From: a virus
Virus record (IMG/VR): IMGVR_UViG_3300036853_000375
Location: 1-44,695 of that record
Length of the DNA: 44,695 nt
Direction: 5' to 3' (one strand)
The notes under the pieces are model-generated. The model was given only the letters and a program-made list of their open reading frames with translations, ran no database searches and had not been told where the DNA came from. This document shows positions 2,629 to 42,764 of the stretch, one piece after another (the first letter of the stretch is position 1; each line of letters begins with the position of its first letter). The position numbers and the translations under genes were made by a program.

Positions 2629-5600
2629 TCCCTCCGCCGCCACCGGGGTTTGTCCCTGAGAGCAGTGTGACGGTGAGGGGACTCCCGGCTGGTGCGCCGC
2701 CGCCGCCGCCGGGATTCGTGCCCGTGTCGGTAGCTCCACCTCCGCCTCCTCCGGGATTCGTGCCGGAAGCTCCGCCGGCTGCTCCGCCCAGTGCCACCGG
2801 GGGGCTTCCGCAGCAGGCTCAGGTTGCGCCCGTCTTTGGTGCGCCTGCGCCTCGCTTCAACGGCGTGCCTCAACTCACCGTGGCGCCGCCTCCTGCCGCG
2901 CCTGAACCTGCTCCTTCACCCAACTGGGTGGAGAGGGCGCTCGGTGTCGGCGGGATTCCCACGGCTGCACTGGGAAACATGGGCACCGTCTACGAAAACG
3001 CGGTGGGCACCGCTCAAGCCTTAGCCCAGTTGAAGGCAAACATCGACGAACCCTTCATCCGCTTCGGCGAGCGGATGCGCGGCGCTAAACCTGCCGACCT
3101 CAACGTCATTCCGAAGGCTCTCGGCAAAGCCAAAGAATGGAGTCCTTTACAGTACGAAAAGGGAACCGTTACTTACGATCCTGAGTGGGGTCAAGTTACA
3201 AAGAAACCCATCACCGAAGCCTTCGAGAAGTTCAAGCAGGGGCCTTCGCTCAAGGACGTGACGGGCGACATCACCAAGGCACCGCAATGGCTCGCGCAGG
3301 GCGTGGGAAAAATGGGTCCGCAGTTTGCCGCTGCGGGTGCGGCCACCGCGCTTACCGGTCCTTTCGGCGGCATCCTGATGAACGCCGTCAACAATATCGG
3401 GGAGCGCTATAACACGGCTCTCAAGGAGAAAGTCAATGCTCCGGCGGCGGGCATATTCACCGGCTTACTCATCAGCGCTTTCGACACCCTCGGCCCGTGG
3501 CTGCAACTGAGAGGCGTCACCAAGGGATTACTTTCAACGGCTGGTGTCGGCGGTGGCACTGAGTTAGTGCAGGAAATCATGGCTATCCTGCACGAGAAGT
3601 TCTTAGGCATCCCGGTGAAAGACCCGTTCTGGCGGCTGATGGAGAACTTCCTCCTCGGCATGTTCATCGAAGGCGGGACGCATGCGGCTGCCCGTCCATC
3701 GAAGGCAGCGGCGCAGCCTCAAGTCAGCACCGGTCCCCCGCCTCCGCCTCCCGGTGGACCGCCACCTCCTCCTCCCGGTGCGCCTCCCGCAGCACCGCCG
3801 ACGACTCCCGCTCCTCATTTCGGCGAGCCGGGGTATGCGGAGTGGGCCGCTCAGAATGGCTTCACTTTGGACGACAAGGGCAGGATCGACTTGACGGTCG
3901 AGCAAAGGGCTCCTGCTCCTGCTGCTCCTGCTCCCGCTGCTCAGCCGAGCGTCGAGATCCAGCCTCCCCAGCCAGCGGCTCCTGCGTCTCCGGTTGATGC
4001 CGAGAGTGAGCGCATCTCTCAGTCCCTCTTCGGCAGGCCCTATGCAGACCTCGATCCGGAGACGGCGCGCCTTGTCAGGCTGGATGCAATTGAGAACTTG
4101 GCTCCTACCACCACGGTGCCTCCTGATGCCGACATGGTGGTCGAGGGTCCGAACGGCCCGCAAGCCGTGGACAGTGCGGACGTGTTCGTCGACCGCATTC
4201 TCCAGGCCGCAGGGATCGAGGAGCCGAAGCCCACAGCTTGGGAAGCGCGGGTGGCAGCAGCGAAGGAGCGGCAAGCCAAGAGCGGCGGTGCGCTCTATTC
4301 CAACCCCTTCGCCAATCCTCAGTGGGTCAGCGACATGGTGGTGATTATCGCCGACGACATTCGCCACGGAGTGGTCACCGCGAAGAAGGCCATCGAGAGG
4401 CTTGTGGCCAAATACGGCGAGCAGTACCGGCCGCAGGCGCTGGACGTGGTCCGCCAGGCGCAGGTGCTCTCGAAGGAGCCGCCTGCCCCAGGAATGCCCG
4501 CTGCTGCGCCGCAAACGGCCCCAGGAGCGTCCGCTGCCACTCCGCCGTCCCTGACAGCCACCCCGCCCACCGGCTCGCCACAGGGCCAGCCAGCGCAAAT
4601 TCCGGTTCCGCCCGTCGAGCCGCCTCTGCCTCCCAATCCGGCGGACTGGCCCGATCCCGACCCGAGCGGTCCTCTCCGCAATCTCCTCCGGCTGCCCCTG
4701 AAAGCCTTCCGCTGGAGTAAGGAGGTGGGCCTCCAGCTTTACCAGATGGCCCAGCAGTACCCGGACTTCCCGCCCATCCAGAACCAGATCAAAGCGCAGG
4801 CCCGCTGGGATGCCCACGAGCACCAATGGGTGAGCTACAACGGCCAGGTCTACCAGGCCGTCGTTGGCCTCGGCAAGAAGAGGCTGAAGCAGCTCTCCGA
4901 CTTGACCTTCGATGTCAGGCTGCGGGAAATCAAAGCCAACGCCCGCCTCACCGACGAGGCAGTCGCCAGGATCGCCGACGGCTATGGAATCAAAGACACG
5001 GACAAGACCTTCCAGGTTTACCAGCAGATGCAGCGGTACTTCCTCGACTCCTGGGAAGCCATGCGGCAGGCCCAGATCCAGTATCTTCAGGCCACCGTGC
5101 CCGATCCGGTGGAGCTGGCCAAGGCCATCAAGACGACCAATGAACAGTTCGCCGAGCAGGCCAAGTTCCACTACGTCCCGCTCATGCGCTTCGGCGAGTT
5201 CATGGTCTCGGCGTACATCCCGACCACCGATCCCAAGTACAAGAGCGGCACGAGGATCGACCAGCAGGCGCACTTTGCCAGCCATGCGGCCGCGCTCGAA
5301 GCCGCCGCCGAGATGAGGAAGCAGTACCGGGAAGACGGTCAGGTCGTCGATAACATCTACGTCAGCCCCAAGCCCATGAGTCCGGCCATGCAGAACCTCG
5401 CCAGCCTCCCGCCCGACATGGCTTCCCGCCTCGTCGATAAGCTCGGCCTCACTCCGGACCAGCGCGCCGAATTGAGCAGGATGGTGGGGGACAGGATCAC
5501 CGACAACTCCTACTTCCAGCGCCTGAAGAATGCCAAGGGCATCGCCGGGTACAGCACCGATCTCCCGCGCGCTCTCGCCGCTTACGGCGCTTCGCACTCG

Positions 5601-23332: not shown

Positions 23333-23923
23333 ATGGCCAAACAGAAAGCCGCCCCGCCGGTCCAGATTCCCCCGGTGCCGCCCGGAGTCGTCAATCCGGA
23401 CAATCTTTATAACGATGCGTATCAGGATCTCCCCGCCCTGCGCTGGGACTCGGTCGAGTTCCACGATAAGCTCGCCTGGCTCTGTGAAGAGCAGCCCCAC
23501 CAGATCGAGAAGTGGTATGCCACGCGCAACTCCTCGCCAGAGACTTCCTTCCTCAACCAGACCCAGTTCACTGCGGTGCTGCCCAACGGCGAGAAGTACG
23601 AGTGCGACGTCCGGAATGTCGAGATCTACCCGTCAGCGCTCCTCTATTCCCTGCAGTGCGTGGCCGGCACCGAAGGCGACACCGTGGCGCAGTATCCCGG
23701 CTACGATGCCCGCCACCCGAAAGGGGAAACCTCGCCGATCGGGCCGCCGCTTCAGAATCAGCCCTGGCCCGGCCGCACCCTCTACGCCGATTACGGCGGC
23801 CATCAGTACAGGGTGGGCGAGGAATTCAAGGATGAGACCGGCGACCGGTATACGAAGGTAGAATTCGTGATCCCGCCGCGGGCCACCGGCCTCGCCTGGG
23901 AACGCAGCTATGATGCCTCCTAG
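23333..23923 (+). CDS. Hypothetical late protein
   Basis: A 196-residue protein with a Pro/Val-rich N-terminus and a mixed alpha/beta core including SVEFHDKLAWLCEEQPHQIEKWY and an aromatic-rich C-terminal region. AGGAG lies upstream of ATG 23333. No family is recognised. An antisense HNH gene ends inside its stop codon (shared CTAG), so it marks an insertion boundary. Confidence 0.75.
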   Translation: MAKQKAAPPVQIPPVPPGVVNPDNLYNDAYQDLPALRWDSVEFHDKLAWLCEEQPHQIEKWYATRNSSPETSFLNQTQFTAVLPNGEKYECDVRNVEIYPSALLYSLQCVAGTEGDTVAQYPGYDARHPKGETSPIGPPLQNQPWPGRTLYADYGGHQYRVGEEFKDETGDRYTKVEFVIPPRATGLAWERSYDAS

Positions 23924-24438
23924 GGCACCTGTTTCCAGATTTTCCGCTGAATGATCAGACTGATATTCTCTGGTCTCACCCCGAACTTGGCGGCAAGTTC
24001 TCCGCGGGTACACTCGCCGGTGGCATGGAGAAGACGGATTGCTGCAATGTCACTCTCTTTGAGCTTGAACTTGCTTCCAGGATATCTTCGCCGATGGTGG
24101 TCATCTCCGTGTTTTACTCGCCCCTTGGCGGTGCAATCGCTCATGTTGTCTTTCTGCGTACCGCACCACAAATGCCGAGGGTTCACGCAGGCGGGTTGGT
24201 CACAGGAGTGACAGACGAACAGCGGGGTCGGGTCATAACCATTGGCAAGCCAGAAGGCCGTCCGGTGAGCGAGAACCCGTTGCCTTTTCCCAACCCGGAG
24301 CATCCCATATCCGGCATTGGTCCGATAACCGTTCCAAAGCCAGCATTCGTCAGGCCCGCCTTTCGGCACTTTTTCCCAATGGTGCTCGATATCATCGGCG
24401 GTCAATTCCGCCAGGGGTTTAGAATTCGTTTTAGCCAC
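23920..24438 (-). CDS. Free-standing HNH endonuclease, antisense cassette 1
   Basis: A 172-residue protein. It has the HNH_3-type pattern CWLWNG...GYG...LAHRTAFW...CHSCDQPACVNPRHLWCGTQKDN, with metal and active-site Cys/His positions kept. The C-terminal 45 residues form one helix-turn-helix (LKESDIAAIRLLHATGECTR). GTG 24438 follows GAAGGAGA. Its stop shares CTAG with the sense gene. It lies antisense to the late arm and probably cuts cassette-free relatives. Confidence 0.85.
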   Translation of the reverse strand: MAKTNSKPLAELTADDIEHHWEKVPKGGPDECWLWNGYRTNAGYGMLRVGKRQRVLAHRTAFWLANGYDPTPLFVCHSCDQPACVNPRHLWCGTQKDNMSDCTAKGRVKHGDDHHRRRYPGSKFKLKESDIAAIRLLHATGECTRGELAAKFGVRPENISLIIQRKIWKQVP

Positions 24439-24517
24439 TGTGTTCTCCTTCGCAGATCACTTTGGTCAGGGCCGGGTAGCGCTACGAACGCTGCCCGGTC
24501 CGCTCAATTATGCCATG
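24439..24517 (-). promoter_or_regulatory. HNH cassette 1 promoter and hairpin leader
   Basis: On the minus strand, CATGGCATAATTG (24517-24505) provides an extended -10 (TGGCATAAT). Then follow a hairpin (24498-24472), TGACC, GTGATCTG and AAGGAGA before the HNH start. The same order recurs at 30775-30852 and 32056-32136. Sequence upstream of CATGG belongs to the next sense gene. Confidence 0.65.
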
Positions 24518-24685
24518 GAAAACGGTCCCTCTCCCCTCTGGGTGATCGCTGCTCTGCGCGACGAGATTCGCTGCCTTCGCCAGTACATCAGCCTCCTCGA
24601 GTGGGAAAATCAATACCTCAAAGATCAGGTCCGGCAGTGCGATCTCGCCGTTGAAATATTTCATCCCACCCGTATTGATTCGTAA
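24515..24685 (+). CDS. Small coiled-coil protein
   Basis: A 56-residue protein starting at the ATG of the cassette boundary, MENGPSPLWVIAALRDEI. The middle (RDEIRCLRQYISLLEWENQYLKDQV) is a short coiled coil. No ribosome site is clear, perhaps because the HNH insertion separated it from the original one. A longer frame to 24440 reads antisense to the cassette leader. Family unknown. Confidence 0.55.
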   Translation: MENGPSPLWVIAALRDEIRCLRQYISLLEWENQYLKDQVRQCDLAVEIFHPTRIDS

Positions 24686-24711
24686 CGGTTCGATGATAAC
24701 CTTGATCCCAA

Positions 24712-24749
24712 TGCCTCGTTCGAAAGAGGCAATCCGGAAAGGTTAACCT
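24712..24749 (+). promoter_or_regulatory. Hairpin and palindrome before the PEP-CTERM gene
   Basis: TGCCTC (24712-24717) pairs with GAGGCA (24726-24731) around GTTCGAAA. A perfect AGGTTAACCT palindrome (24740-24749) overlaps the weak ribosome site. No T-run follows, so these are more likely control elements than terminators. Confidence 0.45.
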
Positions 24750-24751
24750 CC

Positions 24752-25447
24752 ATGAAATCGTTCGTCCTTGCGTCCCTGCTCGCCCTGTCGAGCATGACCC
24801 TTAACGCCACCCTCCTCAGCACCCTGTTGCTGCCGGGCGGCTCGCTCACCAACGGCAACCTCACCATCGATAACTTCGCCTTCACCCGCACCTGCGGCGG
24901 CATCGGAGTGTGCGCCCCTCTCGATGCGTCCGGCATCGACGTCACCCTCGTCAATAACCAGATCCGCTTCGCCGGCGGCTTCTCCGCACTCTCGAATGCG
25001 GGCTTTGCTTCGGCGGACTTCCTCATCGCCTATGATCTTCAGTCCACCCTCGCCATCGGCGGCGTGGGTCTGCTCTTCAACGGAGCCGTCGTCGGCGATC
25101 AGTCGTTCGCCCAAGTGGTGGAGTCGGTGCTCGGCACCGTGCCCTTCCTCCATGTCGCGGGGCAAGCGCAAGTCAATGCCCCCGGCGGCCCGCTCGCCGA
25201 TGTGGCCATCCTCGACGCCGCCTACCATAACCTGCGGATTGTTAAGGATATTTTCTTAGTCGGCTCCGATACCGAGGGCCTCGGCTACGCGACGATCTCT
25301 TTGATTGACCAGTTCTACGCCGGAGTTGGTGTAGACCCGTTCTGCGTCGAAGGCACCTGCGAGGTGGTTCCCGAGCCCGCCGCCTACGGTCTCATCGGCA
25401 GCGCATTGATGGGGCTTTACGCAGTGAGGCGCCGCAAGGTAAGCTAA
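24752..25447 (+). CDS. PEP-CTERM-type secreted/surface protein
   Basis: A 231-residue protein. Residues 1-19 form a Sec-type signal peptide (MKSFVLASLLALSSMTLNA). The mature part is rich in small and hydrophobic residues with Cys pairs near 48/53 and 197/202. It ends with a PEP-CTERM tail: VPEP at 206-209, a hydrophobic segment and RRRK. In bacteria such tails are sorted by an exosortase to the outer surface. A terminator follows directly. This is not a typical phage gene, and it may alter the host surface or was acquired from a host. Confidence 0.85.
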   Translation: MKSFVLASLLALSSMTLNATLLSTLLLPGGSLTNGNLTIDNFAFTRTCGGIGVCAPLDASGIDVTLVNNQIRFAGGFSALSNAGFASADFLIAYDLQSTLAIGGVGLLFNGAVVGDQSFAQVVESVLGTVPFLHVAGQAQVNAPGGPLADVAILDAAYHNLRIVKDIFLVGSDTEGLGYATISLIDQFYAGVGVDPFCVEGTCEVVPEPAAYGLIGSALMGLYAVRRRKVS

Positions 25448-25487
25448 GACTCCTCTAAGGGTTTTTCGCAACTACAACACCTAATCC

Positions 25488-25522
25488 AAGGGCAGCGGCA
25501 AGTCCGTTGCCCTTATTTTTTT
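25488..25522 (+). terminator. Intrinsic terminator after the PEP-CTERM gene
   Basis: AAGGGCAGCGG (25488-25498) pairs with CCGTTGCCCTT (25504-25514), 11 pairs with one G-T, loop CAAGT, followed by ATTTTTTT. This is the clearest intrinsic terminator in the genome. Confidence 0.9.
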
Positions 25523-25549
25523 GCCATATACGCCAACTGGTGCAATACT
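25521..25549 (+). promoter_or_regulatory. Promoter directly after the terminator
   Basis: TTGCCA (25521-25526), 17 bases, AATACT (25544-25549), with TG one base upstream of the -10. Predicted start is near 25556, the A of the next ATG, so this transcript is probably leaderless. Confidence 0.6.
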
Positions 25550-25555
25550 GCATCC

Positions 25556-25702
25556 ATGCCTGCCACCCGCAAGCCGCCTCCCGACGATGATCCGGATCCG
25601 GAGTTCTCCGAGCTCTTCGATCCCAACCCGCCGTACGATCCGGCCGGCGAGGAAGCCGACATTCCGGACGTCGATATGCCCGAAGAACTGGAGGTGCCGT
25701 AA
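25556..25702 (+). CDS. Small acidic Pro-rich protein, leaderless
   Basis: A 48-residue, very acidic, Pro-rich protein starting MPATRKPPPDDDPDPEF. It begins at the predicted transcription start and its TAA overlaps the next ATG (TAATG). Low-complexity composition makes the family hard to identify. Its place before a structural gene suggests an assembly or scaffold aid. Confidence 0.65.
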   Translation: MPATRKPPPDDDPDPEFSELFDPNPPYDPAGEEADIPDVDMPEELEVP

Positions 25703-26448
25703 TGGCCATAGGTACACGCATCGGCCCGGATGGAAGGCCCATCGAGGAGCCTTTCTTCGGCCTCGGTAATGCTCTCGCCTCGCTCCCCGGCACGCCCGTT
25801 CTCCCCGGAGCCACCACTCCTCCACCCGCCACCGGCGGCTACGAGCAGCCCGGTGTCCAAGGACCGCTAGCAGGAGGCTCCACTCCGCAAACCAATCCCG
25901 GCCTCCCGCCTCCGGCTTCCACCGCTGGCACCGGCGGCTTCTTCGGCGGCCAATCGCCATTTCAGCAGGGCGTGACGGGCACGCTGAACAACGAGACGGT
26001 GCCCTTCAACTCGAATCAGTATGTGACTCCGGAGGCGGCTCAGAGGCTCGGCTCCCTGCTCGGCGCGAATGTCGTCGAACAGAACACGCAGGGGATGGCA
26101 AGTCCGGGCAGTGGCGCACCTTCAGCGCCGCTCCTGGGACTCGACTTCGGGGGCCGGGGTGACGTGCAAGATGCTGCGATGGGTGCTACGCAACTGGCGC
26201 GTGGTGATCGTCCTGAAGATGTCGCTGCTCGCTACAAGGCAGGGCTCACAACGAAAGCGTGGGCAGGCGATAACCCCATCCCTCAGTTGGCCGAAGCATG
26301 GGATGCACCGTACTGGAACAGGGCAAATCCGGTTTCTACGAATACGCCCAACGCCGAGCAGGCTGGCTTCTTCGGTCCGCAGTCCGGCCAAGGAGACCAA
26401 ACCGCGTTCTTCAATTGGTTGCGAGGTCAACTTGGCGGTCAGAGCTAG
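25702..26448 (+). CDS. Gly/Pro-rich virion protein
   Basis: A 248-residue protein with Gly, Pro and Thr-rich N-terminal half and a less biased C-terminal part (DAAMGATQLARGDRPEDVAARY, GQGDQTAFFNWLRGQLGG). It starts on the previous stop. The end shares CTAG with an antisense relic frame. It resembles tail or head accessory proteins by composition only; no motif gives a specific role. Confidence 0.7.
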   Translation: MAIGTRIGPDGRPIEEPFFGLGNALASLPGTPVLPGATTPPPATGGYEQPGVQGPLAGGSTPQTNPGLPPPASTAGTGGFFGGQSPFQQGVTGTLNNETVPFNSNQYVTPEAAQRLGSLLGANVVEQNTQGMASPGSGAPSAPLLGLDFGGRGDVQDAAMGATQLARGDRPEDVAARYKAGLTTKAWAGDNPIPQLAEAWDAPYWNRANPVSTNTPNAEQAGFFGPQSGQGDQTAFFNWLRGQLGGQS

Positions 26449-26573
26449 CTAATTCGTTGACGCATCCCATTGAAGAGGCGTACCATTGCCACATCTAGGG
26501 CGGAAATCTCTTGCCGTCCTTTGACTGGAAATTGGGCATTTCGATTGTCACGTGGTTTCGGGCGGTTCCGCTT
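26445..26573 (-). pseudogene. Probable relic of an antisense HNH gene
   Basis: The frame ends at TAG 26445-26447, sharing CTAG with the sense stop exactly as the intact HNH at 23920 does. Its last residues, EISALDVAMVRLFNGM, match the first half of the HNH C-terminal HTH (DIAAIRLLHATG in the intact copy). The start lies after GGGATCACACA but is AAG, not ATG. A GTCCGG/CCGGAC dyad at 26604-26634 may be the leader remnant. Confidence 0.45.
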
Positions 26574-26658
26574 GTGTGATCCCTCGCCGCCCGTTAAAGC
26601 GGGGTCCGGACGGTAACTGACTAAGCGGCCGGACTCCGCATATTTGGAATTTGAAATA

Positions 26659-27150
26659 ATGCCAGTCACCGAACTGAAGCACCTCAGCCACCGCCACATT
26701 GCCCTGCTTCACTGGTGCATTGCCAATCCCCACAGGCAGTTACGCGAAGCCGCAGTGGAGTTGAACTTTGGGAGACAGTACGTATCGATTGTCGTCCACT
26801 CGGATATTTGGCAGGCTGCGTACAAAGAGCTTTGTGCCGAACAAGGGAAAGAGGCGGTATTTGTTGGTGCCCAAATAACTGACAAATTACATAACCTCGC
26901 GCACCGCGCGCTGGATGAAGTGGATCGGCGCTTGGAAGAGAACGAACTCGAGTCGCGCGAGCTGCTCACCGCCGCCAAGCTCTCGCTCACCGCTCTCGGC
27001 TACATCAACCCCAAGGGCTACTCGACCGACATGCACGTCCATTCGCACCTGCAGGTCGACGTGAACATTATTAATGAGGCGCGCGAGCGGGCGCTACAGC
27101 GCCGTGCCCCCCTCGTCATAGAAACCCAACTCGAAGAATCAGGAGAGTGA
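26659..27150 (+). CDS. Terminase small subunit-like protein
   Basis: A 163-residue protein starting MPVTELKHLSHRHIALLHW. A helix-turn-helix-like N-terminal half (NPHRQLREAAVELNFGRQYVSIVV) leads to an oligomerising helical region (AHRALDEVDRRLEENELESRELL) and a C-terminal tail. This order is that of phage TerS proteins, which recognise packaging sites. It lies upstream of TerL, separated by three small genes. A TTG at 26644 is an alternative start; ATG 26659 is preferred. Confidence 0.7.
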   Translation: MPVTELKHLSHRHIALLHWCIANPHRQLREAAVELNFGRQYVSIVVHSDIWQAAYKELCAEQGKEAVFVGAQITDKLHNLAHRALDEVDRRLEENELESRELLTAAKLSLTALGYINPKGYSTDMHVHSHLQVDVNIINEARERALQRRAPLVIETQLEESGE

Positions 27151-27151
27151 A

Positions 27152-27907
27152 ATGCAGAACACCACGGTGGAAGTATTGGCCGAGAGGCTCTACACGGCCA
27201 AAGCCGGGATGAGCAATTGGCAAAGCGTCGAGACGCTCCAACCCATCCCCGCCTGGTCCGACACCCCGCGGACCATGAAGAACCTCTGGTACGCCGTGGC
27301 GCAGGATTCGCTCAATGCCGCCCAAGCGCCGGCGGGCCAGAGCATTTACACTGCCTACGCGCGGGCTTCCGAGGGGAAGAGCATGGAGACGCAGGCTGAC
27401 ATGCCCAAATGGGGGGGCCTATCCCCCACTCTTCAGGCCGACTGGACCGCCGTGGCCGAATGCGCCACCGATGTCTCCGAGGATCTCCGCCATGACCCGA
27501 AGCCGTTGCCCGATCGCGCCAACCTGACCGAAGTACCGACGCTCCCCGCTCCGCCGCTGCCGGCGGTGGCCGAGGTCACCATTGATCCGCTGGAGCAGAA
27601 CTTCCCCGCTTCCGGCGGCGGCCCCGGCGGCAGCATGACCGCCTCGGTCATCGTCACCATGACCGGCGAAGGCATCGACAACACCTGGCGGGTGGACAAG
27701 CAGTCAGAAGCCACCTGGCTGACGATCGACTCTCCGCCCGAAGACACCCCGCAGTCGGCCAGTGGCCTCGTGAGCTATACCGTGGCGGCCAACACCTCGC
27801 TCGAGGAACTGCGCGGCGCGCTCTACATTAACGGCAAAACCCACACGGCCATCGTGGCGCCCGCCGCGGCCACTGCCACCGCCGCCCGGAAGGCCAATCA
27901 CAAGTAA
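27152..27907 (+). CDS. Paralogue 1 with BACON-like domain
   Basis: A 251-residue protein. Residues 8-55 carry a module LAERLYTAKAGMSNW...PAWSD...WYAVAQDSL shared with the next two proteins. Residues 145-235 look like a BACON/Ig-type beta-sandwich (ITIDPLEQNFPASGGG, ATWLTIDSP, VSYTVAANTSLEELRGALYING). Such domains often bind carbohydrate or decorate virions. It ends ANHK. SD AGGAG precedes ATG. Role as a head decoration or host-glycan binder is inference. Confidence 0.7.
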   Translation: MQNTTVEVLAERLYTAKAGMSNWQSVETLQPIPAWSDTPRTMKNLWYAVAQDSLNAAQAPAGQSIYTAYARASEGKSMETQADMPKWGGLSPTLQADWTAVAECATDVSEDLRHDPKPLPDRANLTEVPTLPAPPLPAVAEVTIDPLEQNFPASGGGPGGSMTASVIVTMTGEGIDNTWRVDKQSEATWLTIDSPPEDTPQSASGLVSYTVAANTSLEELRGALYINGKTHTAIVAPAAATATAARKANHK

Positions 27908-27921
27908 TAAGGAGAAATCAG

Positions 27922-28263
27922 ATGCAAGAGATGACGCAGGACCAGATCGCCGAGCGCATGTACATCGCCTTTTGCGCGGCCTCCCAGTGGCGGGATGCCG
28001 AGAACGGGAAGAAGCTCCCGCCCTACTCCGACGTGCAGAACACCGCCAAGTTCCCCTGGCGCGCCGCCGCCCAGGTCGCCATCGAGGTGCAGGACGACCT
28101 GCAGAGCCGCGGCAATCCCCGCCCCATCCCCATCGGCACCAAACAGCATGTCGGCGAGGTGCGCGACGTTCTCAAAGAGGAACCCGATCACCGGCACGAC
28201 AAAGCCAACGATGAGCCGGCCAACGCCCCCGTCACCGAATCCAAGAAGGCGAACCATAAATAA
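27922..28263 (+). CDS. Paralogue 2 of the head-side triplet
   Basis: A 113-residue protein. It has the same N-terminal module (IAERMYIAFCAASQW...LPPYSD...FPWRAAAQVAIE) and, like the first, ends ANHK. The beta-sandwich is missing. AAGGAG precedes ATG 27922. It is probably the product of a gene duplication. Confidence 0.7.
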   Translation: MQEMTQDQIAERMYIAFCAASQWRDAENGKKLPPYSDVQNTAKFPWRAAAQVAIEVQDDLQSRGNPRPIPIGTKQHVGEVRDVLKEEPDHRHDKANDEPANAPVTESKKANHK

Positions 28264-28277
28264 GGAGAATTCCCCAG

Positions 28278-28715
28278 ATGGCAGAAAAAGCAGAAAAAGA
28301 AACGACGAATCCCGTCAAGAACCCCGATCCGACGCAGCTCCCGGCGCATCAAGAGGACGGACTCGCCGAGAAACTCTACGAGGCGTACTGCAGTTCCGAG
28401 AAGCCCGACTACAAGTGTCCGGTCTGGAAGGACGGCGACTATACCCTGAAGGCCAAATGGCGCGCCGTCGCCAATCTGGCCAAGTCGCGCGGTCCTTTTG
28501 ACGATCCCGATGAACGCATCCGCATCGGTGAAGAGACCCGCTTCGCTTTCCAGCACGTCCGCGACATGGCCTTCGCCGACGCCCCCGGAGCGAAGCCGAA
28601 GGATGACAAGGCCAAGCAGGAGAAAGACAAGGAAGAGAAGGCCAAACAAGACAAGGAAGGGCATGAACACCACCCCGCCGTACCCGGCGTGGCTCCCATG
28701 CAAACCCATAAATAG
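28278..28715 (+). CDS. Paralogue 3 of the head-side triplet
   Basis: A 145-residue protein with a Lys/Glu-rich N-terminus, the shared module (LAEKLYEAYCSSEKP...CPVWKD...AKWRAVANLAK) and a Lys/Glu/Asp-rich tail ending QTHK. AAGGAG precedes the ATG. The stop overlaps the TerL GTG. Position between TerS and TerL fits a packaging or head accessory role. Confidence 0.7.
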   Translation: MAEKAEKETTNPVKNPDPTQLPAHQEDGLAEKLYEAYCSSEKPDYKCPVWKDGDYTLKAKWRAVANLAKSRGPFDDPDERIRIGEETRFAFQHVRDMAFADAPGAKPKDDKAKQEKDKEEKAKQDKEGHEHHPAVPGVAPMQTHK

Positions 28716-30226
28716 TGGCGATTCGAAAAGCTCCCCCTCAGGTCGACCTCAACGAATTAGTATCGTTGTGCGCCACCGACGGGGAGCTTTTCTGCCGCAC
28801 CTTCTTCCCCTCCGCCTTCCGCCAGTCGAGCCCCGAATTCCACCGCGAGATCTGGAAGGATTGGACCAATCCCGATGTCTCGCTCTCGGCCATCGCCGTC
28901 TTCCGCGGCGGCGCCAAGACCACCCTCCTCCGCGCCTACGTGGCGTGGAGTGTAGCGTATCGGGCATCCAGAACCATCGCCTACCTCGGGGCTTCAAGCG
29001 AGAAAGCGCAGGAATCGGGAGACTGGCTCCGGAGATTGATCGAAGGGAATAGTGAGGACGGCTTGGCCTTCGCCCAAGTCTACGGGCTGAGGCCGGGCAA
29101 CAAGTGGAATGCCGATAGACTCGACGTGCTCTGCCGGTTATCGCCGCAGAAACCGGAGACGACGATCAGTTTGGTGGCGCTCGGTATTACGAGCAGTGTG
29201 CGCGGTTTGAACATCGCAAATTATAGACCGGATCTGGTGTGTTTGGACGACGTGCAAACCGAAGAAAATGTTGGGAATGAGACGCAGAGGGCCAAGCTGA
29301 ATGAGTTAGTGTATGCCAGTATTTTGCACACAATGGCTCCGCGCTCGGAAGCACCGAATAGCAAACTGGTGCTCCTGCAGACGCCGATGAGGCCCCAGGA
29401 TTTGATCGCTCGCGCCGAGCACAACCCGGATTTCACGTTCAGGAAATTCGGAATACGCGGAGACGATGGCCAGAGCCGGTGGGAAGAGAGATTCCCCACG
29501 GCGGTGATCCAGAAGGAAGAGGAATCCGCACGCCGGGAGCATCAATGGGCGTACTTCGCGAGGGAGCGCCTTTGCTGGCTTGTCCCTGATGAAGGCCAGT
29601 ATTTTCGCGTTGAGGATTTGCGGTATTACGAGTCTGTCCCACCGAACCTTATCACTGCCTACGCGATAGATCCCGTTCCGGCTCCTACCGCAGCACAGGT
29701 GGCTGGATCAATGGCGAGCAAGGACTTTGAATGTCACGCGGTGGTGGGTATGACGCCTTCGCGTGACGTGTATATTTTGGAGATCGCTACTTCTCGCAAC
29801 CACCACCCCGACTACAGCACCAACAAATTCTTTGAGCTAGCCGGGAAGTGGAGACCCTTACGGGTAAGGGTCGAGGGCGTATCTTACCAGTCCACTTTGA
29901 AATGGATAATTGATGAAGAACAGAAGCGCCGTGGCCGCTTCCATGCCGTGGAGATCTGGAAGGATATGCGGGCGAAGCCGATTCGGATTCGTCAGACCCT
30001 CGCAGGTTTAGCCTCCAACGGAAAGCTCTATTGCAGGCGTGACCAACTCGACTTCCTGACCCAATGGCAGACGTATCCTTCCGTGGATCACGACGACGTC
30101 TTAGATGCCGTCAGCATGGCGGTCAGCCTAGTCCTGGAACTCTCAGATAGCGTCGGTGAGTTCGGCGATATGGCGATGGCGGGCGGACCCGCGCGGCTTG
30201 AAGCGGGGTGGCGTCAGTGCCCATAG
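28715..30226 (+). CDS. terL: Terminase large subunit
   Basis: A 503-residue packaging motor. Residues 64-70, RGGAKTT, are the Walker A; LVCLDD at 174-179 is the Walker B. The C-terminal nuclease has D319 (AIDP), a following Asp in the 330s and DHDD at 458-461. GTG 28715 overlaps the previous TAG. It should translocate DNA into the head and cut concatemers. An antisense HNH gene begins three bases after its stop. Confidence 0.95.
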   Translation: MAIRKAPPQVDLNELVSLCATDGELFCRTFFPSAFRQSSPEFHREIWKDWTNPDVSLSAIAVFRGGAKTTLLRAYVAWSVAYRASRTIAYLGASSEKAQESGDWLRRLIEGNSEDGLAFAQVYGLRPGNKWNADRLDVLCRLSPQKPETTISLVALGITSSVRGLNIANYRPDLVCLDDVQTEENVGNETQRAKLNELVYASILHTMAPRSEAPNSKLVLLQTPMRPQDLIARAEHNPDFTFRKFGIRGDDGQSRWEERFPTAVIQKEEESARREHQWAYFARERLCWLVPDEGQYFRVEDLRYYESVPPNLITAYAIDPVPAPTAAQVAGSMASKDFECHAVVGMTPSRDVYILEIATSRNHHPDYSTNKFFELAGKWRPLRVRVEGVSYQSTLKWIIDEEQKRRGRFHAVEIWKDMRAKPIRIRQTLAGLASNGKLYCRRDQLDFLTQWQTYPSVDHDDVLDAVSMAVSLVLELSDSVGEFGDMAMAGGPARLEAGWRQCP

Positions 30227-30228
30227 GT

Positions 30229-30774
30229 CTAAAGCACATGAGTCCACGTCTCCCGGCGAAGCACATGGCTGACGATGCTTTGACTGATTCCGAACTTGGC
30301 GGCGAGGTCGATCTGCTTAAACGATCCGGTCGCGTGAAGCGCTCGAATTTCGGCGACGAGACTCTCGGTCAACTTGGACATGCCGTGCCGTGTTCCGCGC
30401 AGCACAAGTTCGGGACGGATTCGCGAGTAGTGGTTGTCTCCGCTGCAAAGCAGCCCCTTGGCCTTGGCGTCACGCATGTTGTCGGTGGTGGTCCCGAGGA
30501 ACAGATGAGCGGGGTTACAGCAGATTTTAACGTCACAACGATGGAGCACGAAGAGCGTCCCAGGATTTTCCCCGTGCCCAAGAAAATAAGCGACCCTGTG
30601 TGCGCTGAGGGTATGCCTTCCTGGATTAAAACGGAAGTGCCCATAGCCTCTGGATCGGTTGCCCATCCACGGCCAGCAGGCATCCGGCCCACCACTTTTG
30701 TCCACTTTCGGCCAGAAACGCTCGGTGTTCTGAGCATCAAATTCAGGCACCGGTTTAGAATCGTTGCAAGCCAT
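30229..30774 (-). CDS. Free-standing HNH endonuclease, antisense cassette 2
   Basis: A 181-residue protein with CWPWMG...GYG, AHRVAYFLG, CDVKICCNPAHLFLGTTTDN and one C-terminal HTH (KLTESLVAEIRALHATG). One conserved Cys/His position (VLHRCD) differs slightly from cassette 1. It sits between TerL and a membrane gene. Its ATG 30774 follows AGGAGG and the shared cassette leader. Confidence 0.85.
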   Translation of the reverse strand: MACNDSKPVPEFDAQNTERFWPKVDKSGGPDACWPWMGNRSRGYGHFRFNPGRHTLSAHRVAYFLGHGENPGTLFVLHRCDVKICCNPAHLFLGTTTDNMRDAKAKGLLCSGDNHYSRIRPELVLRGTRHGMSKLTESLVAEIRALHATGSFKQIDLAAKFGISQSIVSHVLRRETWTHVL

Positions 30775-30852
30775 GCGGCCTCCTATTCAGGCTGTAAGGT
30801 CAGAGCCGAGCGGCGTGTCGCAGCGCCTCTTGGCTCGTTCAATTATGCCATG
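30775..30852 (-). promoter_or_regulatory. HNH cassette 2 promoter and hairpin leader
   Basis: On the minus strand, CATGGCATAATTG (30852-30840) is followed by a GAGCC...GGCTC hairpin (30836-30803), TGACC and AGGAGG. The hairpin sequence differs from the other copies while stem positions are largely kept. Confidence 0.6.
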
Positions 30853-30863
30853 AAGGAGACACC

Positions 30864-31067
30864 GTGATCGACCAATTAATCTACCTGATCATCGCGATCG
30901 TCATTTTTGCCATCGTGGCTTACGGACTCAATTGGATCATTGTCACCTATGCGCTCCCGGCCCCCGTGAAATGGATCGTGGGCGCCCTGCTGCTGATCAT
31001 CCTGCTCCTGTTCGTCAGCCATCAACTGGGGGTCGGCGGCGGCGGGAGAATCTTCCCTGCGCGGTAA
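30864..31067 (+). CDS. Holin-like membrane protein
   Basis: A 67-residue protein with two membrane segments, residues 4-28 and 35-54, a PAPVK turn between and a Gly/Arg tail. GTG 30864 has AAGGAG at good spacing. The layout fits a class II holin, but no endolysin is nearby, so the role is only suggested. Confidence 0.6.
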   Translation: MIDQLIYLIIAIVIFAIVAYGLNWIIVTYALPAPVKWIVGALLLIILLLFVSHQLGVGGGGRIFPAR

Positions 31068-31172
31068 CTATGCAAAAAACGAGCCAGCCTCCACGAATCT
31101 CGGCTACGATGGAATCTCTCTATGGGACTGCGTTCACCACTCAAAGGACTGGAATCGGGATGGAGGACGCCC

Positions 31173-31250
31173 ATGTCGTGGTACGAGATCGCCATCATCG
31201 CACTGGTGCTGCTCGGCATCGTCTATTTGTATCTGGAGTTGAAAAAGTGA
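31173..31250 (+). CDS. 25-residue membrane microprotein 1
   Basis: MSWYEIAIIALVLLGIVYLY forms one membrane helix, with a basic LELKK end. GGAGG precedes ATG 31173 at seven bases. Its TGA overlaps the next GTG. It could be a small holin or inner-membrane regulator; size alone limits certainty. Confidence 0.6.
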   Translation: MSWYEIAIIALVLLGIVYLYLELKK

Positions 31251-31324
31251 GTTGGATCGACGCGCTCCTGCTCGCTATCATGGCTCTGGCTTCGCTCACG
31301 TTCCTGCTGGGGGAAATGCCGTGA
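31247..31324 (+). CDS. 25-residue membrane microprotein 2
   Basis: VSWIDALLLAIMALASLTFL also forms one membrane helix and starts with the same S-W pair as its neighbour. The GTG overlaps the previous TGA. A longer frame exists upstream, but has no ribosome site. The pair are the same length and appear to be twins. Confidence 0.55.
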   Translation: MSWIDALLLAIMALASLTFLLGEMP

Positions 31325-31326
31325 GT

Positions 31327-32055
31327 CTATACCCAAACCTTGCGGTTCACGATGTTGCAGATATTGCTGCCAGTCGTTCCGAACTTCCTGCCGATTTCCT
31401 CTTGGGTAAAGTTACCGGTCGCCCACAGCGCTCTGATCTCGGCTACATCAGCCTCGGTCAATTTGGTGTTGCCGTGCCACTTCCGGAGCGGCGAAAGCTC
31501 GGAGACGATATGCTTCCAGGAAATCCCGTGGACGACATTCCGAACTGTCGTCATGCTAACCCCAAACTGCTCACCGAGGGATTGGTAAGTAAACTCTCCG
31601 GTGGCGTAAAGTCTGTTGATCTCGACAGCTTTAGCGTCGGTGAGTTTGGACACGCGGTTGTTCTCCCCACGCATGATCCACTCCGGGTGTCTTCGCGCCC
31701 AATGGACATTCCCGTTCGTGAACCGTCCCTTGGCCATGCAGTCATGGAGGTTCTGAATTTTCGTGCCGAGCCACAAATGCGCGGGGTTCTGACAAAGGGG
31801 ATTGTCACATCGATGGCACACGCACATCGAGCCGGGATCAATTCCGGTGCCCAGAAAGTAAGCGAGGCGATGGGCAAGGAAAATTCGGCGCGGTTTCCCC
31901 GGGCCGATACTGAATATCCCATACCCCTTGTTGTTGAGACTGCCTGTCCAAGGCCAGCAGGCATCCGGCCCTCCGCTCTGATCGGTCTTCGAATCCAATC
32001 TTCCGAGGTCGTAGGGGGGAAGCGTAGGCAATCGTTTAGTCTGAAGATCAGCCAT
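31327..32055 (-). CDS. HNH endonuclease with two C-terminal HTH modules, cassette 3
   Basis: A 242-residue protein with CWPWTG...GYG, AHRLAYFLG and CHRCDNPLCQNPAHLWLGT. It has two tandem C-terminal modules: KLTDAKAVEINRLYATGEFT and KLTEADVAEIRALWATGNFT, each followed by a short recognition-type helix. The others have one. It begins two bases after the sense TGA, antisense, with its ATG 32055 following AAGGAGA. Confidence 0.85.
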   Translation of the reverse strand: MADLQTKRLPTLPPYDLGRLDSKTDQSGGPDACWPWTGSLNNKGYGIFSIGPGKPRRIFLAHRLAYFLGTGIDPGSMCVCHRCDNPLCQNPAHLWLGTKIQNLHDCMAKGRFTNGNVHWARRHPEWIMRGENNRVSKLTDAKAVEINRLYATGEFTYQSLGEQFGVSMTTVRNVVHGISWKHIVSELSPLRKWHGNTKLTEADVAEIRALWATGNFTQEEIGRKFGTTGSNICNIVNRKVWV

Positions 32056-32136
32056 TGTGGTCTCCTTTACAGATCACGGTGGTCAAGGGCCGTTGCAGCG
32101 TTGGCGCGCTGCTTCGGCTCGCCCAATTATGCCATG
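32056..32136 (-). promoter_or_regulatory. HNH cassette 3 promoter and hairpin leader
   Basis: On the minus strand, CATGGCATAATTG (32136-32124) is followed by a strong hairpin (32118-32089): GCCG and GCAGCG arms pair around a short loop with an internal A-A mismatch. TGACC, GTGATCTG and AAGGAGA then match cassette 1 closely. Confidence 0.65.
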
Positions 32137-32147
32137 AGGCTCTCGCA

Positions 32148-34088
32148 ATGACCGGGAAATTCCACATCAAATTTGACAGCGAACTTCATCAAGATACGCT
32201 CTCCCGCGTCCTTCGAATGTTCCAGGCTTCCAGGGACAAGATGTCGTCTCGGCATGAGAAGTGGAAGACGGCCGAAACACTTTTTCGTGCGTACCTGCCT
32301 GAGAGTGAGGCATCCTCTAAAAAGCAAAGAGCGCGGGAGCAGGGCAGTGCCAGTCAGTTCAGCGAGGTGGTGCTGCCTTATAGCTACGCCTTAGCTCTAA
32401 CTAGCCATACTTACGCAACTAGCGTGTTTTTGGGACGTGACCCAGTCTGGCAAGTGAAAGGTAGACATGGAGAGACAGAGCAGAGTACGCAATGTTTAGA
32501 GGCGTTACTTAGCTACAACCAAGATATAGGCGATATGGCCGTACCTGAGTTTATCTGGCTACTAGATAGCATCAAGTATGGGTGCGGAGTTGTAGCTAGC
32601 GATTATGCAAAAGAATACCAGATATTCTCCGAGTACGTTCCCATCGCACCGACCTTGGGTGGTATCGACTTGGGCGCAGATCCGAAGTATGAGTTGGTTG
32701 AGGAGCGTGTGGAAGGCTATTGCGGCAACCGTATCCAAAATGTCAGGCCCTACGATCTGTATCCAGATCCATCTGTTCCCCTCGTCGCGTTTCAGGATGG
32801 GGATTTTTGCGGCCATACCCTGCTGATGTCGCTCGACCGTTTGCGCTCGATGCAGCAGGAATGGGATCTCTTCAACCTGGATCAAATCGAAGGCGGAAGC
32901 ACGGGCATGGGCGGCAACGCCATGGCTCCCTCCACGAGTGGAAGCCGCGACAATATGCTGGCGGCGGAAAAGGTGTGGGATCCGAAAGACCTGAAGGGTG
33001 GCAAGGTCGGTCTGTTCCGCATCGTGGTGAATCTCTTCCCGGCTGATTGGAAATTTCCTGGCAAATTCCTACAAAAATGGGAACTGATCATCGCCAACAA
33101 CAGCGTCATCATCAAAGCTTCGCCGCTCGGCCTCCGTCACTGCAAGTTCCCGTATGACGTGATTGCGTGGGAAACCGACGGCTACGACACCTCGACGCGC
33201 GGCATGATGGAAGTCACCAAGCCGCTCAACGACGTGATCAACTGGCTCTACAACACGCACATGTTCTCGGTGCGGCGTTCGCTCAACGGCAACCTGATCA
33301 TCGATCCCGACCGCATCAATGTGAAAGACTTGATCGACGGCGGACCCGGACGGATCGTCCGCATGCGCCCGGGCACAGGCTATGGCACCGACGTGCGCTC
33401 CGCCGTCGCTGAGTTGATGAACGTCGACCCGACGCGCGGGCATCTCTCCGACACGCAGTTCACCGAAGGGCTGATGCAGCAGATCACGGGGAGTAACGAC
33501 TCCCTCATGGGTTCGCTCGGGCGTGGGCGAAAAACGGCTACCGAAGTACGCACCGCCGCCGCGCAGGGGGCGAACCGCATGAAGACATTCTGCGACTTCG
33601 CCTCCGCCTTGGGATGGAGTCGCCTAAGCCGCAAGATGGTGGCGAACTTACAACAGTTCTACGACCAGGAGAAGATGTTCCGCATCGCCGGCGACCTGAT
33701 GCAGGGCACCAAGTTCGTCAACGTCGATAAGACCATGATCACCGGCGAATTCGATTACGTGCCGGTGGACGGCACGCTGCCCGTGGACCGGTTCGCGCAA
33801 GCGACTTTATGGAAGGAAATCTTCTCGGTGATCGGCAAGAACCCGCAGATCGCCCAGCAGTACGACATCTCGAGGATCTTCGGGCACATGGCTTCGCTGG
33901 CGGGACTCAAGAACATCACGCAGTTCCGGATCACGCCGGACGAGGCGGCGATGCAGCAGGCGCAGGCCGGAAATCTAGTCCCCGCGGGGCAGGCAATGGG
34001 AGGCGAAGGCGGTGGCGGATACCCCGGAACAAGTCCGACAGCAGCGATTGCAAGCATGGTCAACGGAGCTGGCGGAGCACCGCAATGA
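32148..34088 (+). CDS. Portal protein
   Basis: A 646-residue protein with an alpha-rich clip/stem/wing layout typical of podovirus-like portals. Features include VLPYSYALALTSHTYATSVFLG, the NVRPYDLYPDPSVP loop and the DVINWLYNTHMFSVRRSLNG helix. ATG 32148 follows GAGG at 8 bases and overlaps a five-codon reading that begins at the cassette boundary. The portal is the entry ring for DNA and docks TerL and the tail. Confidence 0.9.
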   Translation: MTGKFHIKFDSELHQDTLSRVLRMFQASRDKMSSRHEKWKTAETLFRAYLPESEASSKKQRAREQGSASQFSEVVLPYSYALALTSHTYATSVFLGRDPVWQVKGRHGETEQSTQCLEALLSYNQDIGDMAVPEFIWLLDSIKYGCGVVASDYAKEYQIFSEYVPIAPTLGGIDLGADPKYELVEERVEGYCGNRIQNVRPYDLYPDPSVPLVAFQDGDFCGHTLLMSLDRLRSMQQEWDLFNLDQIEGGSTGMGGNAMAPSTSGSRDNMLAAEKVWDPKDLKGGKVGLFRIVVNLFPADWKFPGKFLQKWELIIANNSVIIKASPLGLRHCKFPYDVIAWETDGYDTSTRGMMEVTKPLNDVINWLYNTHMFSVRRSLNGNLIIDPDRINVKDLIDGGPGRIVRMRPGTGYGTDVRSAVAELMNVDPTRGHLSDTQFTEGLMQQITGSNDSLMGSLGRGRKTATEVRTAAAQGANRMKTFCDFASALGWSRLSRKMVANLQQFYDQEKMFRIAGDLMQGTKFVNVDKTMITGEFDYVPVDGTLPVDRFAQATLWKEIFSVIGKNPQIAQQYDISRIFGHMASLAGLKNITQFRITPDEAAMQQAQAGNLVPAGQAMGGEGGGGYPGTSPTAAIASMVNGAGGAPQ

Positions 34089-42246: not shown

Positions 42247-42678
42247 TTAAACGGACAGCCTCATCCTCGCGCGAAAACGGCGCATATGTTCAGCCATGCA
42301 AGCGCGACAAATGCGATGTCCGTCAATGGCGTGAATATGCGTGTTTTCCGCAGTGTACTCATGGCCATTACAGCAGTGGGACCGTTCACGCCAGTGGTTC
42401 TTGCCACGGCGAAGATTCTCTGCGTGCGTGACGGGCTCCAAGTGTGCAGGGTTTACACAATGCCGTACTCGACACAAATGATCGAGTTGGAGTCCTTTCG
42501 GGACAGCGCCGACGAGGTGTTCGTACACCAGTCGGTGTACCCTGTAGGTCTTGTAACGCCAGCCACAAATGCCGTAACCCTTATGGTTGGTCATTCCAGT
42601 CCAGAGCCAACACTGGTCCGGCTCTCGATCTGGGAAGTACTTATCCAGCAGTTCAACGATAGACTTGGTTCGTGGCAT
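42247..42678 (-). CDS. HNH_3-type homing endonuclease without the shared cassette
   Basis: A 143-residue protein with QCWLWTG...KGYG, VHRLVYEHLVGAVPKGLQLDHLCRVRHCVNPAHLE and a second zinc-like CCNGHEYTAENT...RICRAC. It lacks the C-terminal HTH and the CATAATTG leader, so it is a separate lineage from cassettes 1-3. ATG 42678 is used; starts at 42729 and 42741 are possible. It lies antisense between fibre and the next gene. Confidence 0.8.
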   Translation of the reverse strand: MPRTKSIVELLDKYFPDREPDQCWLWTGMTNHKGYGICGWRYKTYRVHRLVYEHLVGAVPKGLQLDHLCRVRHCVNPAHLEPVTHAENLRRGKNHWRERSHCCNGHEYTAENTHIHAIDGHRICRACMAEHMRRFRARMRLSV

Positions 42679-42764
42679 TCGGGAAATCTCAACTTTCCTG
42701 ACTGTCGGGCGGGTGGGTGTTTCGCGCATCCATCCGCTCACTCATTTAACCATAGAGAGGCCCA

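Follow-up and report, generated by a model that had tools for sequence, protein, structure and literature searches.

The 44,695-base virus record IMGVR_UViG_3300036853_000375 of IMG/VR, analysed over its whole length and called here the window, carries on the minus strand three HNH_3 endonuclease genes, plus a fourth, diverged copy. Over the start of each gene lies an element of about 80 bp, which most plausibly encodes on the plus strand a cis-antisense RNA similar to SymR of Escherichia coli. Such RNAs would repress the translation of homing endonucleases, and would be carried along with them in mobile cassettes; a probability of about 0.85 is assigned to this reading.

Each cassette would host two promoters placed face to face around the element. 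The extended -10 found at the edge of the insert would drive the HNH mRNA. A second -10, located in HNH codons 5-7, would drive an RNA of about 80 nt from the opposite strand, starting at the HNH start codon, crossing the HNH ribosome site and ending near a GC-rich hairpin followed by a T-rich tail. The CUCC loop of the first hairpin may pair with the HNH ribosome site and block translation, perhaps joined by promoter interference, and the cassette would bring its own silencer. The DNA-cutting enzyme would thereby be made in a low and controlled amount. Free-standing homing endonucleases must spread without killing the cell or the phage, and the putative silencer would be a concrete control device. 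Transcription, termination and translation block are deduced from the layout of the element; homing is inferred because of family membership and of the existence of empty and occupied sites.

Strand and structure of the element

The element, its strand and structure, the two -10 boxes, its position and distribution, and the empty and occupied sites were all read from the sequences. The leaders of the three similar HNH genes had been singled out in a first-pass annotation of the window. As reported there, all host the motif CATGGCATAATTG, found on the minus strand at 24505-24517, 30840-30852 and 32124-32136 in exact copies and at equivalent positions, and followed in each leader by a hairpin, TGACC and a ribosome site. 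When two mismatches were allowed, at least three such matches were found in 4 of 100 shuffles. HNH genes end, again as described, within three bases of the preceding plus strand stop codon. The figure of three copies is correct for the similar ones, and leaves out the diverged copy at 42677-42754. The hairpin is similarly present in each leader; the description was incomplete, as all three leaders have another one, whose arms flank the HNH ribosome site.

Twenty-two distinct, related copies of the leader were aligned by MAFFT without use of structure; being akin to one another, they provide cell counts that do not correspond to independent events. RNAalifold predicted two hairpins on either strand. 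Pair cells include, when read on the HNH strand, 352 Watson-Crick, 56 A.C, 2 G.T and 8 other combinations, and the A.C misfits are G.U pairs when read on the plus strand. On the latter, 97.0% of the cells are standard pairs, both sides have changed in 14 of the 20 pairs, and the consensus energy is -31.3 kcal/mol, versus -10.7 on the HNH strand. The plus strand covariation score, 0.531, was reached by none of 500 shuffles (mean 0.274), which confirms that the hairpin arms differ between copies and still pair. Eleven distant copies, whose alignment was fitted to a model and leans toward it, feature 28 G.U and 2 A.C on the plus strand. Single-sequence folds favour the plus strand in 4/4 window copies and 23/24 distant copies.

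Because misfits on the HNH strand are mostly A.C, which turn into G.U on the plus strand, the structure under selection is, on the pairing pattern, that of a plus strand RNA having its own -10 and T-rich tail, and not that of an RNA leader of the HNH mRNA, as initially thought. A cruciform or a protein-binding palindrome would not yield such asymmetry. The case offers a worked example of how the G.U/A.C asymmetry settles the strand of an RNA.

Promoters and organization of the RNA gene

The boundary of the insert had been set at CATGG. Relatives feature CGTGG, AGTGG, GGTGG and others at this place, and the conserved edge is the extended -10, fitting TGnnAnAAT. Examined by eye in the 22 copies, this HNH-strand box is invariant at positions -11 and -7. 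TG at -15/-14 is found together with a non-T at -12 in 15 of the 22, T at -12 without TG in the remaining 7, and both never occur. A candidate HNH-strand -10 is present in 22/26 distant copies. The pattern of conservation indicates that the HNH-strand -10 is real.

On the plus strand, a box fitting TANN[AC]T spans HNH codons 5-7 in the 22 leaders. Three coding positions never change in the 22 copies: 14 (A), 18 (T), which is the last base of codon 6 and stays fixed though residue 6 varies, and 19 (A), which opens codon 7. In distant copies, a TANNNT box ends 13-22 nt before the loop in 24 of 26, the background being 11% of 21-position control windows drawn from those antisense coding regions. 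Exactly 7 nt separate the box from AGCCAT or AGCCAC, which complements the HNH start, in window copies 1-3. The order of the RNA gene is -10, predicted start 7 nt on, a hairpin with a CUCC (anti-ribosome-site) loop, GGUCA, a GC-rich hairpin (P2) and a T-rich tail. The tail after P2 has 4.5 T/10, versus 2.0/10 in the background. At sequence level the element qualifies as a cis-encoded antisense RNA, complementary to the start of its client gene and endowed with its own promoter and end signals, the terminator being weak in the window. A closing stem made by the two paired -10 boxes was also considered by eye in the 22 copies, and discarded because variable positions do not covary.

Similarity to SymR and other RNAs

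Searches relied on two home-made covariance models, R1 and R2, whose E-values are rough; R2 includes by design no enterobacterial sequence. None of the Rfam families was reached by any copy at its own threshold. At a loose threshold, the nearest family on the right strand is symR (RF01809), with 36.7 bits (E 0.0015) for the L268 copy, and 27.8 and 26.6 bits for the next ones. In the reverse test, R2 was run on 8 kb of E. coli K-12, and SymR came out as the top match, at the right place and strand (17.4 bits, E 0.0061).

SymR, the RNA of the SymE-SymR pair, is about 77 nt long, folds in two hairpins with CUCC in the first loop, and starts over the start codon of its client. In both systems the RNA is opposite to the client start codon and ribosome site, and the -10 lies inside the client open reading frame, 7 nt before the RNA start. 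Only the -10 of SymR has been proven experimentally: it lies within symE, and two silent changes there abolish SymR (PMC1891008). SymR reads TAGAAT, 7 nt, AGTCAT, and the arrangement TAGAAT-7 nt-A is common to SymR and window copies 1 and 2. The clients differ. SymE has an AbrB fold, is LexA-controlled and chromosomal, whereas the window clients are HNH_3 proteins, putative phage homing endonucleases with a plain extended -10 as predicted promoter. The sar RNA of phage P22 serves a single client, the antirepressor. It is a phage cis-antisense RNA crossing the ribosome site of ant (PMC2629481), and is likened to the element by layout, not by sequence. Antisense RNAs of the restriction-modification systems EcoRI and Eco29kI similarly limit nuclease genes from reverse promoters inside the gene (PMC3874152), but are not in mobile phage cassettes, and no shared structure is known. 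Translation is held down by RNA structure also in the T4-type homing endonuclease genes I-TevI, mobE and segB (PMC3014915), where hairpins act in cis on the mRNA, and not as antisense RNA. CfrI of cyanophage S-PM2 is a phage antisense RNA found beside a homing endonuclease (PMC12197685); unlike the element, it is antisense to psbA, lies between psbA and the F-CphI gene, and does not cover the nuclease start.

Other candidates were rejected. Matches to the R1162-type plasmid antisense RNA (RF00043) scored 24-33 bits versus a gathering score of 55, and were mostly on the client strand. FinP (RF00107) had one match, in L266, of 30.1 bits versus 45. GTTAG resembles the R box of integron attC sites in a few bacterial copies, but the fold consists of two separate hairpins.

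Cassettes behave as inserted units

Sites were compared in 15 relatives with a terminase 76-81% identical to that of the window, and in two contigs with HNH copies. As the annotation had advised, relatives without the insert were looked at, and the same gene junctions turned out to be either empty or filled, the cassette behaving as an inserted unit. The junction between the terminase and a 67-aa gene (site A) is filled in the window, L005, L015, L086, L087, L090 and L099, and empty in L088, L089 and L091-L098. Empty site A reads TGCCCATGAAGGAGAACAAATG, and the stop adjoins the ribosome site. When site A is filled, the HNH stop is near the terminase stop, and the HNH -10 immediately precedes the ribosome site of the gene that follows. 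Site B, the junction ahead of the portal gene, is likewise empty or filled among relatives. L005 has the same site A insert as L015, to which it is 91-98% identical in aligned blocks, yet the site B insert is found in L015 only. Promoter, element and nuclease are therefore acquired or lost as one piece. The idea of a mobile unit made of promoter, RNA leader and endonuclease stands as to an inserted unit that includes a promoter; the hairpin is probably not a leader of the HNH mRNA. Two features of free-standing HNH homing endonucleases, the HNH_3 nuclease domain and empty/occupied versions of one site, are found here.

HNH proteins are 52% identical within one site and 51% across sites, and near-identical leaders may occupy distinct sites, as do those of L099 (site B) and the window (site A). 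Both observations point to repeated replacement or module exchange. HNH_3 proteins 2 and 3 of the window are 42-47% identical to protein 1. In L090 (5932-6745, minus strand) the HNH frame is in pieces and the RNA element is intact (75.7 bits), as in a decaying copy. At empty site A the terminase stop overlaps the next ribosome site. In filled sites the ribosome site is stronger (GAAGGAGG) and the start codons differ (30864-31067 and 32148 in the window), as if to compensate for the lost coupling.

Distribution and client genes

Whole-genome model searches scored a limited set of first-look candidates. A scan of viral contigs for the exact DNA pattern found only 2 true relatives and one chance match, and a protein scan of genome contigs yielded no RNA element at the 14 loci covered. 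According to R1 and R2, the element adjoins HNH_3 genes in many unrelated contigs, with more than 20 copies in other phages. Seven further strong whole-record matches (E < 1e-5), outside the copies by which records were chosen, have six HNH clients and one HNH-like DUF968 client. In the isolated Rhizobium phage RHph_Y1_10 (45.1 bits, RNA match 31749-31827) the adjoining HNH gene (31826-32401) has the direction of the genes around it, and the RNA is oriented toward the end of the upstream gene. The nuclease is not, therefore, always antisense to the operon, as had been presumed: orientation to the client is constant, orientation to the operon varies. Where a genome has several copies, their arms and loops differ, and each RNA could in this way be restricted to the gene that it covers.

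Other phage clients are a GIY-YIG gene (L068), a T5orf172/MUG113 protein (L066), a DUF968-like gene (L238) and a phrog_3377 HNH (L260). Within phages the element is mostly associated with nucleases, a count biased by the sampling of phages via their HNH genes. In a draw of 289 alphaproteobacterial genomes from the class of Skermanella, 10 host the element at E <= 0.001, about 0.3 being expected. Most of the clients there are small genes that match nothing in Pfam, and the majority have Met-Ala as first residues, at the predicted 5' end of the RNA. The range of clients thus extends beyond nucleases. A leader without an HNH gene, seen in the annotation as evidence against the mobile unit, is thus found in part, next to GIY-YIG and T5orf172 in phages and to small non-nuclease genes in bacteria. 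The same neighbours make it unlikely that the hairpin is a recognition element of the HNH protein.

An RNA type modelled narrowly in Rfam is in this way extended to many phages and to Alphaproteobacteria. It is tentatively proposed, at somewhat less than even odds, that SymR is one member of a large superfamily of portable two-hairpin antisense RNAs, which move between phages and bacteria and swap clients. If so, mobile nucleases (HNH, GIY-YIG, T5orf172) and many small uncharacterised genes would arrive with their own silencer. The data suggest an origin of SymR as a transferable module. The element may also be used as a handle for client discovery, silencer-bearing small genes being good candidates for costly or toxic functions.

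The alphaproteobacterial clients in L267, L269, L272, L273 and L274 (114-200 aa, no Pfam match, starting MAE or MAD) are candidate genes of this sort; those of L267 and L274 resemble each other. One small bacterial genome (G040) has two copies, L275 and L276, over near-identical short reading frames (MANANVQY...). In L068, a GIY-YIG and an HNH gene (949-1602 and 4019-4639), each with an element, are located in or beside a phage tRNA cluster. A weak element (17.1 bits) faces, on the opposite strand, the start of the gene for an SNF2-type helicase of 465 aa (L050, 344-423, minus strand), and a weak match (20.3 bits, E 0.008) covers the start of Mycobacterium phage Phayonce gene 40, a hypothetical protein (NC_028796.1, 31954-32028, minus strand). 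A TnpB-like identity of the L271 client, seen by eye only, is unsupported by Pfam and NCBIfam and is not claimed.

Alternative interpretations

Some observations weigh against a SymR-like antisense RNA. No clear -35 was found for the plus strand promoter, and in the window copies the T-rich tail (CTCAATTATG) is weak, its place overlapping the HNH -10 in this family. No copy reaches the RF01809 gathering score (61 bits), no symR match was reported for window copies, and the phage model matches SymR modestly, a likeness that could reflect convergence on a common antisense design. The G.U asymmetry is by itself also compatible with a single-stranded DNA hairpin. An attC-like or REP-like hairpin of this kind, involved in insertion or recognition, would fit an element travelling with mobile genes, as DNA hairpins tolerate G.T too; it would leave unaccounted for two -10 boxes at fixed spacing, a CUCC loop over the ribosome site and a T-rich tail, and is regarded as very improbable.

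The hairpin might alternatively act in the HNH mRNA, stabilising its 5' end or shielding the ribosome site, in the manner of Aeh1 mobE and T4 segB. Such hairpins are used by T4-type homing genes (PMC3014915), the HNH -10 places the likely mRNA start at the hairpin base, and the HNH strand folds too, more weakly. Misfits on that strand are nevertheless A.C but for a few, consensus energy is three times weaker, the ribosome site is in a loop and not in a stem core, and the plus strand -10 is left unexplained; this reading is improbable. It is quite improbable, too, that the plus strand structure is a 5' leader or a processing site of the adjoining phage gene, offsetting insertion polarity. In the window family the structure is just before the start of the next plus strand gene, toward which the plus strand promoter would transcribe; but the RNA faces the end of the upstream gene in RHph_Y1_10, where HNH is co-directional, the far-side neighbours in L068 are tRNAs on the other strand, and only the relation to the client is constant. 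Little credit at all is given to a guide RNA reading out of the cassette into the target, as for TnpB or IscB. The RNA does point outward, and HNH proteins are about as similar across sites as within them, as if the site were set otherwise. Yet the T-rich tail lies within the cassette, the element is common to GIY-YIG, T5orf172 and non-nuclease clients, and the small HNH_3 proteins bring their own DNA-binding helix-turn-helix.

Features of the window

Table 1. Endonuclease genes, predicted antisense RNAs and predicted promoters in the window (fold energies are given for the plus and minus strands)
Feature	Position	Strand	Remarks
HNH_3 endonuclease gene 1	23920..24438	-	172 aa, GTG start; Pfam PF13392 E 2.4e-7; from open reading frame list
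Predicted -10 of antisense RNA 1, TAGAAT	24420..24425	+	Within HNH codons 5-7; codon-position conservation
Predicted antisense RNA 1	24433..24513 (3' end approximate)	+	P1 with CUCC loop, GGUCA, P2, T-rich tail; covariance model match 24437-24517 (+), 82.1 bits; fold -36.1 (+), -30.3 (-)
Extended -10 TGGCATAAT, predicted promoter of HNH gene 1	24507..24515	-	22-leader alignment
HNH_3 endonuclease gene 2	30229..30774	-	181 aa; between terminase and 67-aa gene (site A); Pfam E 1.6e-9
Predicted -10 of antisense RNA 2, TAGAAT	30756..30761	+	
Predicted antisense RNA 2	30769..30848 (3' end approximate)	+	Model match 30772-30852 (+), 74.7 bits; fold -39.2 (+), -25.1 (-)
Extended -10 TGGCATAAT, predicted promoter of HNH gene 2	30842..30850	-	22-leader alignment
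HNH_3 endonuclease gene 3	31327..32055	-	242 aa; upstream of portal gene (site B); Pfam E 2.9e-6
Predicted -10 of antisense RNA 3, TAGTCT	32037..32042	+	
Predicted antisense RNA 3	32050..32132 (3' end approximate)	+	Model match 32054-32136 (+), 68.3 bits; fold -42.3 (+), -27.1 (-)
Extended -10 TGGCATAAT, predicted promoter of HNH gene 3	32126..32134	-	22-leader alignment
HNH_3 endonuclease gene 4	42247..42678	-	143 aa from ATG at 42678; Pfam E 3e-13
Predicted -10 of antisense RNA 4, TAGACT	42660..42665	+	
Predicted antisense RNA 4, diverged copy	42673..42752 (ends approximate)	+	R2 match at 42677-42754, filters off, 26.0 bits, E 1.1e-5 for 1401 bases; fold -34.4 (+), -16.8 (-)
TGGTTAAAT, predicted extended -10 of HNH gene 4	42744..42752	-	Sequence

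A PEP-CTERM sorting motif (E 4.5e-5 to PF07589, above the family cut-off) is present in the protein that the window encodes at 24752-25447 on the plus strand. The protein is kept in relatives, being 75-80% identical in L087 and L096. An exosortase-type surface signal is unusual for a phage gene.

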